DNA from: Bacteroidaceae bacterium | Lineage (GTDB): Bacteria > Bacteroidota > Bacteroidia > Bacteroidales > Bacteroidaceae | NCBI GenBank assembly: GCA_024398475.1 | Contig: JAKSJB010000011.1 | Coordinates: 1 to 64,000, forward strand | Direction: 5' to 3' | Length of the DNA stretch: 64,000 bases | Shown: positions 3,285 to 64,000 of the stretch, one piece after another | How positions within the stretch are numbered: the first letter of the stretch is position 1 | How the letters are laid out: every line of letters starts with the position of its first letter | Position numbers and translations under genes: made by a program | The notes under the pieces: generated by a model | Told to the model about the DNA's origin: nothing | The model's database searches: none | Seen by the model: only the letters and a program-made list of their open reading frames with translations

Positions 3285-4414
3285 TGAATTGCTTGTCTGT
3301 GGTTTATGGCAGGATTGGCATACATGGTCAGCATGCGTTCTCTAAGATATTCCCTGTCGGCATTCTGGGAAGTGATATACTGTAACTTTTTCTGTATGTA
3401 TGCTTCGAATTGTGCGATTTCCTCCTCGGTAGCGTCGTTTGTTCCGTGTAAAAGTGCCATCGCCGCTCTGTTGCCGGGATAAATACGATAGTGACTGTGT
3501 ATTTCATGGTCAATATGCTCTGCCACCATCTTGAATATTTCCGTCTTTGGCGTTTCTGGGTCGATAGTGTCCAGCCAATCGTTGATACAAGGTGCAGCAT
3601 GGTAATGTATATGCCCCTTGAAACCAAAAATGCCAGTCTTCATGTTGTCGAGGTCGTCTTGCTTGCTCTTCTTGAATCCTTCTATATCGCGCTTGTTCTG
3701 GAACTCCTCTGCCTTTAGGTAATCGCAAGGGTCAAATTCGTAAGAGATAGCCAATGGCACGATATTCATTTCCTTTAGGCTGTCGATGACGGAACCGCTC
3801 TTGCCCATGGCAATCATCTTTAACACGCTGTCCTGTGTGCGGTCATTGCTGTCTTTTGCTCTTCCCTCGCGTTGCGCAATCCATAAGTTGCTGCCTTTTT
3901 CCGCAATGACATAATGCATGTATCGTGACATTTTTGCGGAGGCCAGCAGCATTTGTCGCATTGTGAGTGCCCGTTGAACAATAAATGAACGATTGATGCG
4001 AACCAAATCCTTAATCCATGGATATACAAGTAGATTGTCTCCGATGGCAATCTCTACGGAGTCCAGTCCGTGGTCGAACAAAACCACGTCGAGTAGGGCT
4101 GAATCCAATACTATGTCTCGGTGATTGCTGACGAATGTGTAGCCATTGCCGCTGATATTTGAGAAATCTGCAGTAAGTCCGTGACTTGCTTTTTTAAGAA
4201 TATCCTGCAGGATTGGATAGATAATCCGCTTCTGAAACTCTTGGCTTGTCTTACATGAACGAATCATGGTATAGACTTGTTCCTTTGGAATGTCTTTATA
4301 GATAGATTGAATTACGCCATTGAAACGCCCGTCGTTTAACAAGCGGTTATATGCTTCAGGAAGTTCCTCCGGAATGAATGGCCTTATGTCGTCAAATTCG
4401 TGAATATCTGTCAT
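3281..4414 (-). CDS. Glycerol-3-phosphate acyltransferase-family (PlsC-like) acyltransferase
   Basis: A 377-residue protein with a PlsC-type acyltransferase core: SNHRDIVLDS near residues 108-117 is the His/Asp catalytic block, and IAEKGSNLWIAQREGRAKD carries the conserved EGR-type substrate motif. Such enzymes move acyl groups onto glycerophosphate or related lipid acceptors at the inner membrane. The frame opens 12 codons upstream, but that stretch lies in an ATTAGCC-type repeat, so the ATG at 4414 is preferred, about 70 bases after a -7 box. It is followed by the coupled NigD-like lipoprotein. The acceptor is unknown. Confidence 0.8.
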   Translation of the reverse strand: MTDIHEFDDIRPFIPEELPEAYNRLLNDGRFNGVIQSIYKDIPKEQVYTMIRSCKTSQEFQKRIIYPILQDILKKASHGLTADFSNISGNGYTFVSNHRDIVLDSALLDVVLFDHGLDSVEIAIGDNLLVYPWIKDLVRINRSFIVQRALTMRQMLLASAKMSRYMHYVIAEKGSNLWIAQREGRAKDSNDRTQDSVLKMIAMGKSGSVIDSLKEMNIVPLAISYEFDPCDYLKAEEFQNKRDIEGFKKSKQDDLDNMKTGIFGFKGHIHYHAAPCINDWLDTIDPETPKTEIFKMVAEHIDHEIHSHYRIYPGNRAAMALLHGTNDATEEEIAQFEAYIQKKLQYITSQNADREYLRERMLTMYANPAINHRQAIQ

Positions 4415-4436
4415 GATTACATTTGTTTTAGTCTTA

Positions 4437-4462
4437 CAGCCAATGGCCAATGGCTAATGGCT
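4437..4462. repeat. Short CCATTGGC/CCATTAGC-word array
   Basis: GCCAATGGCCAATGGCTAAT-type words, the reverse complement of ATTAGCCATTGGCC, lie between the acyltransferase start and its promoter. They belong to the same word family as the arrays at 8032, 12735, 13648 and 24590. Confidence 0.6.
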
Positions 4463-4482
4463 TTTATTATTTATCCCGTCTG

Positions 4483-4490
4483 CAAAGTTA
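4483..4490 (-). promoter_or_regulatory. -7 promoter element for the acyltransferase operon
   Basis: Reads TAACTTTG on the minus strand and is followed by C, matching TAnnTTTGC. It is about 70 bases before the ATG at 4414. Confidence 0.55.
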
Positions 4491-4628
4491 CGAAATAATT
4501 CGAAAAAAACTAAAGATGCTATATTCAATGTGTAAATTACTGTTGTCATAATTGCGGATATATGCTAAATGACGTGTATGATGACCATTTTTTTATTGAT
4601 AAAGAAGTATGAATTATGAATTATTTAT

Positions 4629-4636
4629 TACCTTTG
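4629..4636 (+). promoter_or_regulatory. -7 promoter element for the phenylacetate-CoA ligase genes
   Basis: TACCTTTG followed by C fits the Bacteroidota -7 box. It lies inside the upstream extension of the ligase frame, so the true start must be downstream, at 4661, leaving a leader of about 15-20 bases. Confidence 0.65.
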
Positions 4637-4660
4637 CAAGCACAAACAAACACGCATACA

Positions 4661-5962
4661 ATGATTTGGAATCCAAGTAAAGAATGCATGAGCCGTGATG
4701 AAATGATGGCTTTGCAGAGTAAAAGACTGAGAAAAATTGTAAATTATGTCTATCATAATGTGCAGTTCTATCGTAATAAGATGCAGGTAATGGACCTGCG
4801 TCCTGATGATATCCATACGATTGAGGATATTCAGAAATTACCATTTACTACAAAGCAGGATTTGCGCGATAACTATCCATTTGGTCTCCAGGCTGCCCCA
4901 AATAGTGAAATAGTACGTATTCATGCATCAAGCGGTACTACAGGAAAACCAACAATAGTTGGGTATACCCGTAAGGATATCGGCGTATGGAGTGAAGTGT
5001 TCGCGCGTTGCCTTTCTTCATTTGGCGTGACTCGTGATGATATCTTTTCTGTAGCATACGGTTACGGTCTGTTTACAGGGGGACTTGGTGCGCATTATGG
5101 TGTTGAACAGTTGGGTGCAACTGTAGTCCCTACAAGTACCGGAAATACTGAAAAGCATATACGCCTGTTGCAGGATTTAGGTATCACCGGTATTGCATGT
5201 ACACCGTCTTATGCGTTGTATCTGGCAGAGACGATGGAGAAGTTGGGCATTACAAAAGATGATATTCATTTGCGTATCGGTGCTTTTGGCGCAGAACCCT
5301 GGACAGACAAAATGCGTGCGGAAATAGAGGAACGTCTGGGTCTGAAGGCGTATAATATCTATGGCTTGAGCGAGGTTACGGGACCAGGTGTAAGTTATGA
5401 ATGTGAAGTACAGCATGGCAGTCATATAAATGAAGATCATTTCTTCCCAGAATTGATTGATTCAAAGACTTTGCAGCCTGTAGGTGATGGTGAAGTGGGT
5501 GAATTGGTATTTACAACATTGTCAAAAGAGGGTATGCCTCTCCTCCGCTACCGAACAAAGGATTTGACGACATTGACTCATGGTCAGTGTGCATGTGGAC
5601 GTACAAATGTGCGAATGGGACGTATCATGGGCAGAAGTGATGATATGCTCATCATTCGCGGAATCAATGTATTCCCAAGTCAGATAGAAAGTGTGATACT
5701 CAGTCTTGAAGAGTTTGCACCTCAATATATGATAATCGTTGACCGCCAGGGACTGCTTGATACAATAAAGGTTCAAGTGGAACTTCGACCAGAGTTCTTT
5801 GTTGACGATTTCCCTGCAATGGAAAGAAAAAAGAAACTCCTGATAGAAAAACTCCGTAGCGTACTTTCAATTTCCGCTCAGGTTGATTTGTTGCCTCCGG
5901 GTAGTATTGAACGTAGCCAAGGCAAGGGCAATCATGTAATAGATAATAGAAAATTAGTATAA
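4661..5962 (+). CDS. paaK: Phenylacetate-CoA ligase (first copy)
   Basis: A 433-residue AMP-forming acyl-CoA ligase that activates phenylacetate, or a related aryl acid, to its CoA thioester. The P-loop-like motif SSGTTGKPT is at residues 90-98. YGLSEVTGPG is the adenylate-binding A5 motif, and RTKDLT plus GRSDDMLIIRG mark the hinge to the C-terminal subdomain. The start at 4661 follows the promoter box; the longer frame would begin before the transcript. It is followed at 100 bases by a paralogue and then an ACT-domain gene, a pairing common in anaerobes that ferment aromatic amino acids through indolepyruvate oxidoreductase, whose genes are not in this window. Confidence 0.9.
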   Translation: MIWNPSKECMSRDEMMALQSKRLRKIVNYVYHNVQFYRNKMQVMDLRPDDIHTIEDIQKLPFTTKQDLRDNYPFGLQAAPNSEIVRIHASSGTTGKPTIVGYTRKDIGVWSEVFARCLSSFGVTRDDIFSVAYGYGLFTGGLGAHYGVEQLGATVVPTSTGNTEKHIRLLQDLGITGIACTPSYALYLAETMEKLGITKDDIHLRIGAFGAEPWTDKMRAEIEERLGLKAYNIYGLSEVTGPGVSYECEVQHGSHINEDHFFPELIDSKTLQPVGDGEVGELVFTTLSKEGMPLLRYRTKDLTTLTHGQCACGRTNVRMGRIMGRSDDMLIIRGINVFPSQIESVILSLEEFAPQYMIIVDRQGLLDTIKVQVELRPEFFVDDFPAMERKKKLLIEKLRSVLSISAQVDLLPPGSIERSQGKGNHVIDNRKLV

Positions 5963-6062
5963 CCAATCAAATTAATAACCGCAAGGCAAAACTGATGACA
6001 GAAGGCTTATGGCCAATGGCAAAAGCGGAGCCGGGCGAAACTTGTTAAATAATCAGAAAGAA

Positions 6063-7373
6063 ATGGACAAGAGTCAGTATTTACATCCCGATAAGGAACT
6101 GATGAGTCGTGCTGAAATTGAAGCACTGCAATTGGAACGCCTGCAGAAGACTGTCCGCCATTGCATGAACTCTCCGTTTTATAAGAAGCGTTTCGACTCA
6201 ATAGGACTGACACCTGATGATATCAAATCATTGGATGATTTAAAGAAGATACCTTTCACGACAAAACAGGATCTTCGTGATACATATCCTTTTGGAATAG
6301 CATCTGTTCCATTGGAAAAATGTGTGCGTCTTCATTCATCAAGTGGAACTACAGGTAATCCAACTGTGATTCTGCACACTCAGCGAGATCTTGACGAATG
6401 GGCAAATGCTGTGGCTCGTTGCCTGCACATGGTAGGCCTGCGTCCAACAGACGTATTCCAGAATTCTTCCGGTTATGGTATGTTTACCGGTGGATTGGGC
6501 TTCCAGTATGGAGCAGAAAGACTGGGAATGCTTACAGTTCCGGCTGCGGCTGGCAATACTTTGCGCCAGTTGAAGTTTATCAAGGATTTCGGTACTACTG
6601 CGCTTCATGCAATTCCGTCTTATGCGGCACGCCTGTATGAAGTAATGGTGGAACAGGGTATTGATCCGCGCAGGGATACAAAACTCAAGACTCTGGTAAT
6701 CGGTGCAGAACCTCATAGCGAGGAACAGCGTCGCCGTATTGAGGACATGCTTGGAGTAAAGGCATACAATTCATTCGGTATGTCGGAAATGTGCGGACCT
6801 GGTGTTGCCTTTGAATGCAAGGAACAGAATGGTCTCCATATCTGGGAGGACTATTATATCGTTGAAATAGTCAATCCGGATACATTGGAACCTGTACCGG
6901 AGGGCGAGGTCGGTGAATTGGTACTTACAACTATCAATCGTGAGGGTATGCCTCTTCTTCGTTATCGTACCCGTGACCTTACCCGAATACTTCCAGGTGA
7001 ATGTCCGTGTGGCCGTCATCACAAGAGACTGGACCGTATGCAGGGACGTAGCGATGACATGATTATCCTAAAGGGCGTTAATATATTCCCTATTCAGATT
7101 GAAAAGATTCTGCTTCAGTTCAAGGAACTCTCAACGGATTATCTCATTACCTTGGAGACTCTGGAGCATAATGATGCTATGACAGTCGAAGTAGAAATAT
7201 CAAGTCTCTTCACAGACGATTATGCCCGTCTTGAAAAACTGACAAAGGAAATTACGCGTCAGTTGAAGGATGAAATCCTGGTTACTCCAAAGGTGAAACT
7301 TGTAGCAAATGGTTCATTGCCAAAGAGTGAAGGAAAGGCAGTACGTGTAAAGGACCTTAGAAAGACATATTAA
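6063..7373 (+). CDS. paaK: Phenylacetate-CoA ligase (second copy)
   Basis: A 436-residue paralogue of the preceding gene with the same landmarks: SSGTTGNPT, YNSFGMSEMCGPG, RTRDLTR and GRSDDMIILKG. The sequences are clearly diverged, so this is an old duplication and the two enzymes may prefer different aryl acids (phenylacetate, 4-hydroxyphenylacetate or indoleacetate; inference). The ATG at 6063 begins the aligned region MDKSQYLHPDKELMS. The frame opens 18 codons earlier within a TGGCCAATGGC repeat word, which is unlikely to be coding. It is probably cotranscribed with the first copy. Confidence 0.9.
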   Translation: MDKSQYLHPDKELMSRAEIEALQLERLQKTVRHCMNSPFYKKRFDSIGLTPDDIKSLDDLKKIPFTTKQDLRDTYPFGIASVPLEKCVRLHSSSGTTGNPTVILHTQRDLDEWANAVARCLHMVGLRPTDVFQNSSGYGMFTGGLGFQYGAERLGMLTVPAAAGNTLRQLKFIKDFGTTALHAIPSYAARLYEVMVEQGIDPRRDTKLKTLVIGAEPHSEEQRRRIEDMLGVKAYNSFGMSEMCGPGVAFECKEQNGLHIWEDYYIVEIVNPDTLEPVPEGEVGELVLTTINREGMPLLRYRTRDLTRILPGECPCGRHHKRLDRMQGRSDDMIILKGVNIFPIQIEKILLQFKELSTDYLITLETLEHNDAMTVEVEISSLFTDDYARLEKLTKEITRQLKDEILVTPKVKLVANGSLPKSEGKAVRVKDLRKTY

Positions 7374-12866: not shown

Positions 12867-12932
12867 CATAATCTTTCAAACTCTAATAAACTTCAAGTTA
12901 AATTAATATCAACAAATTAAATAAATAAACAA

Positions 12933-14870: not shown

Positions 14871-16247
14871 ATGAATTATCTGAAACAAATATATACATCA
14901 CTACTGGTACTGGTTGTAGGGATAATGTCAGTTGGATGTGATGACGATACTAAGACCTTGGGTAGTGACATAATGCCGTCCACAGACCTTGTGGTAAAGG
15001 AAAGCGTTTCCTACGACGTGCTTACCGAATCTTATTCTGCGGGAGATTCTGTCCTTGCCCGCTCTGCAATGTCATATCTTGGACGTTTCACCGATCCTGA
15101 AACAGGAACAGCCATCAAGTCGGACTTCCTTATGCAATTCAACTGTCCTACAGGAGAACTGTTCCCGGATACAGTCCTCGGCGACAGTATAGTGTCCGTA
15201 GATCTGCATCTCTTCGTGTCAAACTATGTAGGTGACTCACTTGCAACATTCAAAGTCTCAGTCTATCCTTTGGAGAAGGTAATGGATCCTACAAAGGACT
15301 ACTATACAAACATCGATCCTACACAATACTGCAACATAAATGCCGACCCAATAGCAGTCAAGTGGTACACGCTTTCTGATAGAAGTATTTCTGATGAAGA
15401 ACGATGGAGTTCCGGATATTACAACAATATCACAATTTCGCTTCCGCGCGAAGTAGGTCAGGCAATATATGAGCGCTATCGCAAAAATCCAGGGACATTC
15501 TCCAATTCGGAATCATGGATTAACAGCGGTCTCGTAGGTTCGAAAGGTTTCTATTTCAGGCTTGAAAGCGGTGACGGTGCCATGGCCTATATAGATGTGG
15601 CATTGATGCGTCTTCGTTTCCGTTATCACGACGATACATACGTGAAGGATACAGTTGCCGTTACCGACTTTGCTGCTACGGAGGAAGTGATACAGGCTAC
15701 ACGCTTTGAGAACACCAATCTCGACAAGTTGATGGGCGATAAAAATGCTACGTACCTCAAGAGCCCAGCCGGAATCTTTACGATGGCAACACTCCCTGCC
15801 GACCAGTTGAACTATAACGACACAATCAATGCTGCCAGCATAGCGTTTACGCGCTATAACGACAGGGTGGACAGCCGATTCAAACTCGATATTCCCCAGA
15901 CCCTGCTGATGGTACGCCTTGATGACTATCTCAACGGATATTTCGAAAAATACAAGATATGCGACAATGTCACGTCCTATCTGGCATCATACAATAAGGG
16001 TAGGAATACATACGAATTTCAGAATATCTCGCGTCTTCTCCGAGTGATGATGCAGGAAAAGCATAACGGTACGGCAAGCCCTAATTATAATAAGGTGTTG
16101 CTGATACCAGTAACTCCTACCTATGATTCATCCAGTACGCTTGTGAAGATATGTCACGATTTTGGTATGACAAGTACACGCCTTGTGGGTGGTACTGACC
16201 ATCTTCCAATGCAAGTCATCTACTCTAAATTCAAAAACAAACGTTGA
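14871..16247 (+). CDS. DUF4270 domain lipoprotein
   Basis: A 458-residue exported protein with a lipoprotein signal ending MSVGC (Cys23) followed by DDDTKTLGSDIMPS, the characteristic start of the DUF4270 family. The body is beta-rich, with several FTRYNDR and YIDVALMRLRF-type strands. DUF4270 members are widespread Bacteroidota surface or periplasmic lipoproteins without a settled biochemical function. The gene follows the GT5-like gene by about 70 bases, an arrangement conserved in the group. A clear terminator follows. Confidence 0.85.
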   Translation: MNYLKQIYTSLLVLVVGIMSVGCDDDTKTLGSDIMPSTDLVVKESVSYDVLTESYSAGDSVLARSAMSYLGRFTDPETGTAIKSDFLMQFNCPTGELFPDTVLGDSIVSVDLHLFVSNYVGDSLATFKVSVYPLEKVMDPTKDYYTNIDPTQYCNINADPIAVKWYTLSDRSISDEERWSSGYYNNITISLPREVGQAIYERYRKNPGTFSNSESWINSGLVGSKGFYFRLESGDGAMAYIDVALMRLRFRYHDDTYVKDTVAVTDFAATEEVIQATRFENTNLDKLMGDKNATYLKSPAGIFTMATLPADQLNYNDTINAASIAFTRYNDRVDSRFKLDIPQTLLMVRLDDYLNGYFEKYKICDNVTSYLASYNKGRNTYEFQNISRLLRVMMQEKHNGTASPNYNKVLLIPVTPTYDSSSTLVKICHDFGMTSTRLVGGTDHLPMQVIYSKFKNKR

Positions 16248-62773: not shown

Positions 62774-62781
62774 TACCTTTG
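62774..62781 (+). promoter_or_regulatory. -7 promoter element of the putative RiPP locus
   Basis: TACCTTTG matches TAnnTTTG. The leader to the first ATG is about 125 bases and carries the structured segment at 62789-62836. Confidence 0.6.
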
Positions 62782-62912: not shown

Positions 62913-63185
62913 ATGACAATGTCAGAAGTGAATGCTACGGGTATGGATTCGCTGTATCCCGGGGTGTGTATTGAGGATTTGATCCTCATGCACACTTTCC
63001 CTGGAGGTACGTGTAAATACCGGGCGTGGGCAGACACTCTACTCGTCAATTTCTCAGGCAATCTCAGGGCCTCAATTAACGGACGAGAAGAAGTGGAAGC
63101 CCACGCCGATTGTATTATTGTAGGCAACAATTTGTCAAACTTAATTGCCTTATTGGGTTTCTATAGGCTATTTAATAGAGAATGA
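62913..63185 (+). CDS. Small protein of unknown function, first gene of the peptide locus
   Basis: A 90-residue protein (88 if the second ATG at 62919 is used) with no signal peptide and three cysteines (PGVCIEDL, GGTCKYRAW, HADCIIVGN). The C-terminus, CIIVGNNLSNLIALLGFYRLF, is hydrophobic. I do not recognise the family. Its stop overlaps the next ATG (ATGA, 63182-63185), so the two small proteins are made together, and both precede the putative peptide precursor. It could be a regulator, immunity protein or maturation helper; the sequence does not decide. Confidence 0.6.
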   Translation: MTMSEVNATGMDSLYPGVCIEDLILMHTFPGGTCKYRAWADTLLVNFSGNLRASINGREEVEAHADCIIVGNNLSNLIALLGFYRLFNRE

Positions 63186-63430
63186 AACATTATAATATAG
63201 TTGCCATAGAAATTACAAACGAAGGAAAGGTACCTGAGTTAAAACACCTAACTGTAAGTGGATTGGATATAGTTCACCAATCTCAAAACGAGATTGCCGA
63301 AATGGCACTTGCTGCAGTTAATAATGTTTCTGGAACAAAGGAAGTTAAGTTTGTGGCAGAGCTTTCCGAGGAAGACTTCAACAGATATTTCCACAATCAG
63401 TTAAAGGACTACATCAATTCAACGAATTGA
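63182..63430 (+). CDS. Small protein of unknown function, second gene of the peptide locus
   Basis: An 82-residue acidic protein, cysteine-free, predicted alpha/beta: a strand MKHYNIVAIEIT, a helix around NEIAEMALAAVNNV, a strand VKFVAELS and a helix EDFNRYFHNQLKDYI. No known motif. Its ATG overlaps the stop of the 90-residue gene by four bases. It lies 99 bases before the putative precursor gene on the same strand. A protein-protein interaction role is possible. Confidence 0.6.
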   Translation: MKHYNIVAIEITNEGKVPELKHLTVSGLDIVHQSQNEIAEMALAAVNNVSGTKEVKFVAELSEEDFNRYFHNQLKDYINSTN

Positions 63431-63440
63431 CTATACACAG

Positions 63441-63503
63441 AGAATGCAGATTCGCTGCAAAGGATGTATGCAAAGAGAAAGTCGATTCGCTTGATAGGAT
63501 GTA
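63441..63503 (+). repeat. Two 28-base imperfect direct repeats before the precursor gene
   Basis: Copy 1 at 63441-63468 and copy 2 at 63476-63503 agree at 22 of 28 positions; the shared cores are GATTCGCT and AGGATGTA. The spacing of 35 bases is compatible with paired protein-binding sites or a local duplication. Confidence 0.5.
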
Positions 63504-63529
63504 GACATAACCCTCTAATACTAATCATT

Positions 63530-63667
63530 ATGAAGAAGTATCAGAAAGCAAAGATGGTTGCTAAGAACCTTGCATCTGGCTCTTATGCTGCAGGTTGTCC
63601 AGCTGAGGAACGTGGCTGGGAAAACACCGGCAAATATAGCTGCATCAATTGCGAGCGTACCAAGTAA
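63530..63667 (+). CDS. Putative RiPP precursor peptide (45 aa, three Cys)
   Basis: The start ATG at 63530 gives a peptide beginning MKKYQKAKMVAKN, a Lys-rich helical leader, then ASGSYAAGCPAEERGWENTG and KYSCINCERTK. Cysteines are at 23, 38 and 41. The basic leader followed by a Gly/Ser-rich hinge and a short Cys-containing C-terminus is what a ribosomally made, post-translationally modified peptide precursor looks like. The next gene begins with a PqqD-like recognition domain, which binds such leaders. A longer frame from 63464 runs through the direct repeats and is not preferred. The modification is unknown; thioether or other Cys-centred crosslinks are plausible. Confidence 0.65.
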   Translation: MKKYQKAKMVAKNLASGSYAAGCPAEERGWENTGKYSCINCERTK

Positions 63668-63740: not shown

Positions 63741-64000
63741 ATGTTAGTAAAACAAAGTAAGAATACTTTTATCAGAACAACCGATCATTATGGCTATGTT
63801 ACTAATCAACTTACTCGTCATGATAGAACTTATGACGAGTCGGGAGCAGATTGGTTGAAAGAAATAAACAGAGAACCTCAAGAAATTGATGATATTGTGG
63901 CTCGCCTTGTCACTCTCTACGAGGATGCAGATCCTGAGATAATTAAATGTGACTTTATAGAATTTATTGAGAGTCTTGCTAAAGACAAATTCATTGTTAC
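63741..64000 (+). CDS. Partial protein with N-terminal PqqD-like RiPP recognition element
   Basis: The ATG at 63741 opens a frame that runs off the right edge after 86 codons. The start MLVKQSKNTFIRTTDHYGYV, then DESGADWLKEINREPQEIDD, DIVARLVTLYEDADPEI and the closing CDFIEFIESLAKDKFIV reproduce the PqqD pattern: a strand pair, an ESGADWLK-type helix, EIxxxL, a DxxxxxxD helix and a final FxxxLxxxxFI helix. In Bacteroidota this domain is commonly the N-terminus of radical SAM/SPASM peptide maturases, or stands alone. The rest of the gene lies outside the window, so the enzyme type is inferred. Confidence 0.7.
   Translation, partial: MLVKQSKNTFIRTTDHYGYVTNQLTRHDRTYDESGADWLKEINREPQEIDDIVARLVTLYEDADPEIIKCDFIEFIESLAKDKFIV

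Follow-up and report, generated by a model that had tools for sequence, protein, structure and literature searches.

A conserved three-cysteine peptide encoded beside a radical SAM/SPASM enzyme is probably the precursor of a new RiPP family

The window analysed here, the whole 64,000-nucleotide stretch (bases 1-64000 of a 65264-base contig), ends in a run of small forward-strand genes followed by a predicted radical SAM (rSAM)/SPASM maturase. The gene under study encodes 45 amino acids (MKKYQKAKMVAKNLASGSYAAGCPAEERGWENTGKYSCINCERTK), with its ATG at 63530 and its stop codon ending at 63667. From the ORF translation and an alignment of homologues, the peptide was divided into a leader (residues 1-16), the block GSYAAGCP (17-24), a hypervariable spacer (25-37) and a C-terminal CINCERTK (38-45). 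A longer in-frame ORF could begin at 63464, but the homologues and the position of the leader RNA described below support 63530 as the start. The gene is single-copy in its own genome and the 45-aa peptide has no family match in Pfam, NCBIfam or PADLOC. Cys23, Cys38, Cys41, Trp30 and Tyr36 are at the positions named in the preliminary description, and the translation contains no GG motif.

Just upstream of the precursor gene lies an 82-aa ORF (63182..63430, + strand), itself overlapped by a 90-aa ORF (62913..63185, + strand). The sequence TACCTTTG at 62774-62781, which we take to be a Bacteroidetes-type -7 box, suggests one transcript that runs through the two small ORFs, the precursor and the rSAM gene. 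The 82-aa ORF is probably on the same transcript as the precursor. Its three weak matches (E 0.018-0.33) all lie in other loci with this gene cassette, and it is therefore possibly a variable accessory protein, although its membership is uncertain. Membership is also uncertain for the 90-aa ORF, which has no relative in the other loci. Two tandem RNA pseudoknots occupy the interval before the precursor, at 63438..63471 (stem 1 CAG/CUG, stem 2 GCA/UGC) and 63473..63506 (stem 1 AAG/CUU, stem 2 GUC/GAC), both on the + strand, the second ending 23 nt before the ATG.

The rSAM gene starts 73 bp downstream of the precursor, crosses the window end and stops at contig position 65204, encoding a protein of 487 aa. 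The part inside the window (63741..64000, + strand) covers the first 86 codons, a PqqD-like/RRE domain. Pfam identified PqqD (PF05402, 7e-6, residues 32-85), Radical_SAM (PF04055, 4.7e-26) and SPASM (PF13186, 4.6e-14) in the full-length protein. The structure was represented by an AlphaFold model of the L020 enzyme, which is 83% identical to the window enzyme (mean pLDDT 86.6) and displays RRE-type strands and helices at its N-terminus. The best structural matches of this model were CteB (5wgg, E 5e-16), SuiB (5v1t), SkfB (6efn) and PqqE (6c8v), with moderate TM-scores of 0.5-0.6 against solved maturases, while a profile search of the PDB ranked SkfB and PqqE first. The CxxxCxxC motif and the SPASM cysteines were invariant in 42 sequences. 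In NCBIfam the enzyme resembled many peptide-modifying families but scored under the cut-off of all those listed: PapB (NF047865; 68 bits against 340), AlbA (92/850), SkfB (82/300), StsB (84/625), PqqE (107/381) and MftC (96/265). The PADLOC matches of the rSAM were generic viperin-like ones and were not counted as evidence for a defence role. One family member (L061, 8001-10055) carries a C-terminal extension of ~190 residues that by eye is uracil-DNA-glycosylase-like (VGLNPAMDR motif); this locus has a DUF805b-type RNA upstream of the extended gene and no recognisable precursor.

Relatives were collected through the rSAM, and a scan of 84,980 species genomes returned 77 loci. A recognisable precursor was found within 5 kb of the enzyme in 64 of the 72 loci that could be scored. 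Within the organism's own family, 10 of 399 genomes, belonging to 8 of 30 genera, had precursor homologues, and the trait is therefore accessory. The rSAM profile at E 1e-100 was recovered from 2 of 395 genomes of the phylum. Most rSAM loci came from Bacteroidales in rumen, horse, deer, sheep and other gut samples and from cultured Phocaeicola massiliensis. Further loci were assigned, by the binning of their contigs, to Spirochaetes (Treponema among them), to Clostridia including Lachnospiraceae, to Elusimicrobiota and to Alphaproteobacteria. Some of these assignments, made on short metagenome contigs, may be binning errors; for example, a locus labelled Lachnospiraceae (L070) has its entire cassette in common with one from Spirochaetaceae (L069). 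No relative was found in viral contigs, and phage records gave weak generic rSAM matches only. Because the ORF at 63530-63667 has homologues in the 10 family genomes and ~70 distinct relatives adjoining the same enzyme, on sequence evidence it is a real gene, far beyond chance.

Conservation was counted over 70 distinct precursors. The block GSYAAGCP is nearly fixed (Gly 70, Ser 68, Tyr 69, Ala 65, Ala 70, Gly 68, Cys 70, Pro 65), with Phe replacing Tyr19 once. Counted from the Gly of this block, the leader has Tyr at -13 (66/69), Lys at -11 (63/69), Ala at -6 (70/70) and Asn at -4 (67/70), giving a consensus of approximately K-x-Y-x-K-x5-A-K-N or near variants. The C-terminal motif is C-x2-3-C-[E/D]: the Cys pair is present in 70/70, is usually spaced by two residues (three in 5 precursors) and is followed by Glu or Asp in most, while a third Cys after the pair, as CxxCECxx, occurs in three. 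The second Cys of the pair is exactly 4 residues from the stop in all 70. A C-X3-[D/E] motif is found at the C-terminal pair in 61 of the 70, once in each; of the nine that lack its strict form, four have C-X4-E. Between AGCP and the last eight residues the spacer varies from 6 to 29 residues and is rich in Gly (15.8%), Asn (9.8%) and Ser (9.4%), with 2.7% Trp. Mean pairwise identity was 0.95 for GSYAAGCP, 0.52 for the leader and 0.44 for the C-terminal eight residues, compared to 0.22 for the spacer, where shuffled spacers gave 0.21. In the N-terminal block, which is conserved, synonymous changes are frequently as numerous as non-synonymous ones or more so (for example, 9 identical, 12 synonymous and 3 non-synonymous codons between the window and locus L019); it is thus the protein rather than the DNA that is conserved, under codon-level purifying selection.

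These counts bear on the preliminary description, which had proposed a cysteine-modified peptide precursor and an alignment of homologues as the check. That alignment was made, and both Cys23 and the C-terminal pair proved invariant (70/70); together with the adjoining RRE-rSAM/SPASM enzyme in 64 of 72 loci, the sequence data strongly support the idea. Its view that the peptide is not of the double-glycine type also stands, given the missing GG leader and the absence of a recurring PCAT-type transporter from the fetched flanks. Trp30 and Tyr36, which it had also listed, both belong to the hypervariable spacer and lack conservation, Tyr19 being the aromatic residue that is kept. At locus L040 a divergent second precursor-like ORF (MKTYKKATVITGKIITKTYAASNGPLFELPCYSGPHK, from 3558) with its own pseudoknot leader sits beside a standard precursor.

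The common gene order is precursor, rSAM and then amidohydrolase. Some loci have an unrelated small ORF ahead of the rSAM, some a second rSAM after it, and in some the precursor is downstream of the rSAM. The amidohydrolase was found within 3 kb in 55 of the 62 loci that have more than 1.5 kb downstream; Phocaeicola massiliensis (L059) has none close by, and the window contig stops short of where it could be seen. Its metal ligands (HxH, Lys, His, His, Asp) are invariant in 34 sequences, and the enzyme should therefore be active, whatever its substrate. A structure model (pLDDT 97.2) matched the CAC3332 amidohydrolase, 2-pyrone-4,6-dicarboxylate hydrolase, ACMSD-type decarboxylases and TatD-like proteins. 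The fold is thus nearest to lactone hydrolases and decarboxylases and not to peptidases, which leaves leader removal without an assigned enzyme. No recurring transporter or protease family was found in the fetched flanks of the cassette loci.

Other neighbours are more variable. In about half of the loci the gap between precursor and rSAM holds non-homologous small ORFs (as in L038/L007, L069, L033/L035/L052 and L080), including a PD-(D/E)XK nuclease (L080) and membrane proteins. These gap ORFs may be partner or immunity proteins. A Ser/Thr kinase and a small partner protein of a family not recognised lie near the cassette in ~28 of 73 loci (for example, L007 4776-6477). Five precursor-bearing genomes were checked for the closest copy of the kinase partner: it adjoins the cassette in three (G059, G287 and G303) and lies elsewhere in the other two (G000 and G046), and the partner is therefore accessory at most.

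Conjugative plasmids from E. coli, Salmonella and Photobacterium carry the most distant form seen, a two-gene one in which the rSAM is 38% identical over 99% of its length. A 38-aa ORF (MSYSKPTVLAKSSTYMAQCRPNSKPSGRPCNPPGPSGR) adjoins it; the plasmid gene table, itself incomplete, does not list this ORF, which was identified in two E. coli records and a Photobacterium record. The precursor-rSAM pairs lie at 4809-6437 (L114), 4807-6428 (L115) and 3809-5437 (L116) in E. coli and Photobacterium damselae, with an identical 38-aa precursor in the three, and each adjoins a recombinase-family gene. The plasmid precursor has a leader of the same kind (MSYSKPTVLAK), a Tyr-x-Ala-x-Cys motif and one later Cys, so that Tyr19, Ala21, Cys23 and one downstream Cys are common to it and the window family. 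No amidohydrolase is annotated near the plasmid form, and a near-identity search of complete E. coli genomes with it returned no match.

In most Bacteroidales loci a short element resembling AGGA..GCCGAAAAUCCU..AAAGAGUAGGC precedes the precursor, usually 20-27 nt from the ATG, and strict patterns locate it before 37 precursors. The two crossing stems of the type-A relatives make up an H-type pseudoknot and covary (95.2% of cells paired, 25 with double changes, 0 of 500 shuffles as high). The Rfam DUF805b RNA (RF02914, clan CL00115) scored above its gathering threshold in L036 (four copies: 6421-6455, 12893-12927, 14960-14995 and 15381-15415) and in L019 (5680-5715), and such leader RNAs sit ~21 nt before the start codon. 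The window copies differ in falling below Rfam detection (no match at E up to 1, and none in the window at gathering score), though both of their stems are paired. They represent a second sequence variant (GAWUCGCU..AGGANGUA), also present in about a dozen relatives. Three tandem copies of this variant occur elsewhere in the same genome (L111, G000:C34:30957-31063, minus strand), where they are followed by a short ORF for a hydrophobic peptide that ends in FCGCDDPCDDIGG. Genes for lipoproteins, a TM2-like protein and small membrane peptides likewise have the element in front of them. Its presence before other ORFs and the triple tandem mark it as a general control element that stands outside the peptide chemistry. 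An alternative view of the element as a gene-cassette recombination site was dropped, given its nearly fixed distance of 20-27 nt from start codons and the pseudoknot covariation. No description of a ligand or role for DUF805b RNA was found in the open literature searched.

The locus has the generic features of an rSAM RiPP system: a short precursor with a leader and a conserved core adjoins an rSAM/SPASM maturase, and an RRE is present. We therefore think it likely that the ORF encodes the precursor of a new rSAM RiPP family, probably carrying one or more Cys thioethers and finished by the amidohydrolase. The RRE domain would bind the precursor leader which, by analogy with RREs of known structure, is more likely to dock as a strand than as the helix suggested in the preliminary description. 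The rSAM, through its auxiliary clusters, would then join at least one of the three Cys to carbons of nearby conserved residues. One favoured link would be a local thioether from Cys38 to Glu42 in the window peptide, because C-X3-[D/E] occurs in 61 of the 70 precursors, as in PapB substrates; PapB makes Cys-Asp/Glu thioethers on C-X3-[D/E] and tolerates n = 0-6 (PMC9413430). Since Tyr19, Ala21, Cys23 and a later Cys are shared by all forms, the other leading candidate is a bond between SYAAG (at Tyr19 or Ala21) and either Cys23 or one of the C-terminal Cys; the spacer would then loop out for display between ends that are held fixed. Trimming or some other finishing of the product would fall to the amidohydrolase.

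The same genes can be read in other ways. Tyr19 might instead be where the rSAM acts, making a carbon-carbon or aromatic crosslink by cyclophane-like or SuiB-like chemistry, while the cysteines form a disulfide or bind metal. Tyr19 is kept in 69 of 70 precursors, SuiB is among the best structural matches, and the C...CxxC pattern would suit a metal or a disulfide. However, all three cysteines are as well conserved as Tyr19, one of them inside GSYAAGCP, and the top structural and profile matches are the thioether enzyme CteB and SkfB, respectively, so that a Tyr19 crosslink is unlikely. We give still less credence to a PQQ- or mycofactocin-like route, in which the conserved residues would be excised as a small cofactor or metabolite, the rest would be waste, and the amidohydrolase would tailor the small molecule. 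A full-length product agrees better with two conserved blocks at opposite ends and a C-terminus fixed 4 residues past the Cys pair, and a recurring dedicated oxidoreductase partner is absent, even though PqqE is a close relative, the amidohydrolase most resembles hydrolases and decarboxylases of small molecules, no recurring exporter lies in the flanks and the spacer looks unconstrained. It would be very surprising if the peptide were an unmodified small structural or metal-binding (CxxC) protein placed beside the rSAM gene by chance. Its three cysteines with a CxxC pair and its short, soluble sequence would suit such a protein, but precursor and rSAM occur together in 64 of 72 loci across several phyla, sometimes in reversed order, and a spacer about as conserved as shuffled sequence would hardly be allowed in a folded one.

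The proposed thioether RiPP resembles several known systems in part. Like the ranthipeptides (PapB/freyrasin and CteB), it pairs an RRE-bearing rSAM/SPASM enzyme, with CteB as its best fold match, with a Cys-containing core, and it shares the C-X3-[D/E] motif of PapA (PMC9413430). In contrast to the six motifs of the PapB type there is one here, the rSAM falls below the NCBIfam PapB cut-off, and the conserved GSYAAGCP, the hypervariable spacer and the amidohydrolase partner are features of this family. The sactipeptide systems (SkfB, AlbA and RumMC) also use an rSAM/SPASM enzyme with an N-terminal recognition domain, and SkfB is the best PDB profile match. However, the enzyme is far under the SkfB and AlbA cut-offs, a recurrent transporter or protease is absent here, and the variable region has one Cys on its N-terminal side and two on its C-terminal side, unlike a donor-hairpin-acceptor layout. 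The Bacteroidales GG-leader rSAM clusters with PCAT transporters (PMC10352776) come from the same bacterial order and also combine a small precursor with an rSAM/SPASM gene but differ in precursor and neighbours, the GG motif and a recurrent peptidase-transporter being absent here. PQQ and mycofactocin systems likewise act on a short peptide with a PqqD-like domain and an rSAM/SPASM enzyme and have a hydrolase nearby; here the RRE is fused to the rSAM, the core has three Cys, the accessory genes are others, and the enzyme scores far below the PqqE and MftC cut-offs. The precursor family was not found in the protein libraries searched or in the open-access literature covered.

As to role, a peptide for signalling or microbe-microbe conflict seems likeliest, a view we hold weakly and on circumstantial grounds: the sporadic distribution, plasmid carriage, hypervariable core, gap ORFs and nearby kinase. 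With no dedicated exporter recurring in the fetched flanks, the product may be intracellular or generically exported. More speculatively, the system could be a natural display device, in which one enzyme recognises two fixed ends, each with Cys, and crosslinks them around a segment of ~6-30 residues that is free to diversify, to give a different macrocycle in each strain, the amidohydrolase performs a finishing reaction new to RiPPs, and the tandem pseudoknot RNAs gate expression; we put this forward tentatively, as a possibility with the odds against it.

If this reading is right, the peptide belongs to a widespread and apparently unnamed RiPP family whose hosts are gut and rumen bacteria, chiefly Bacteroidales. 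The maturase must then tolerate a core of any sequence and would be useful for macrocyclic peptide libraries, and the amidohydrolase partner would point to new chemistry. The type strain Phocaeicola massiliensis DSM 17679 and the E. coli plasmids offer culturable entry points. The regulatory RNA class DUF805b would gain a small-peptide target, and beyond Bacteroidales the family would take in the copies attributed to Spirochaetes, Clostridia, Elusimicrobia and gammaproteobacterial plasmids.
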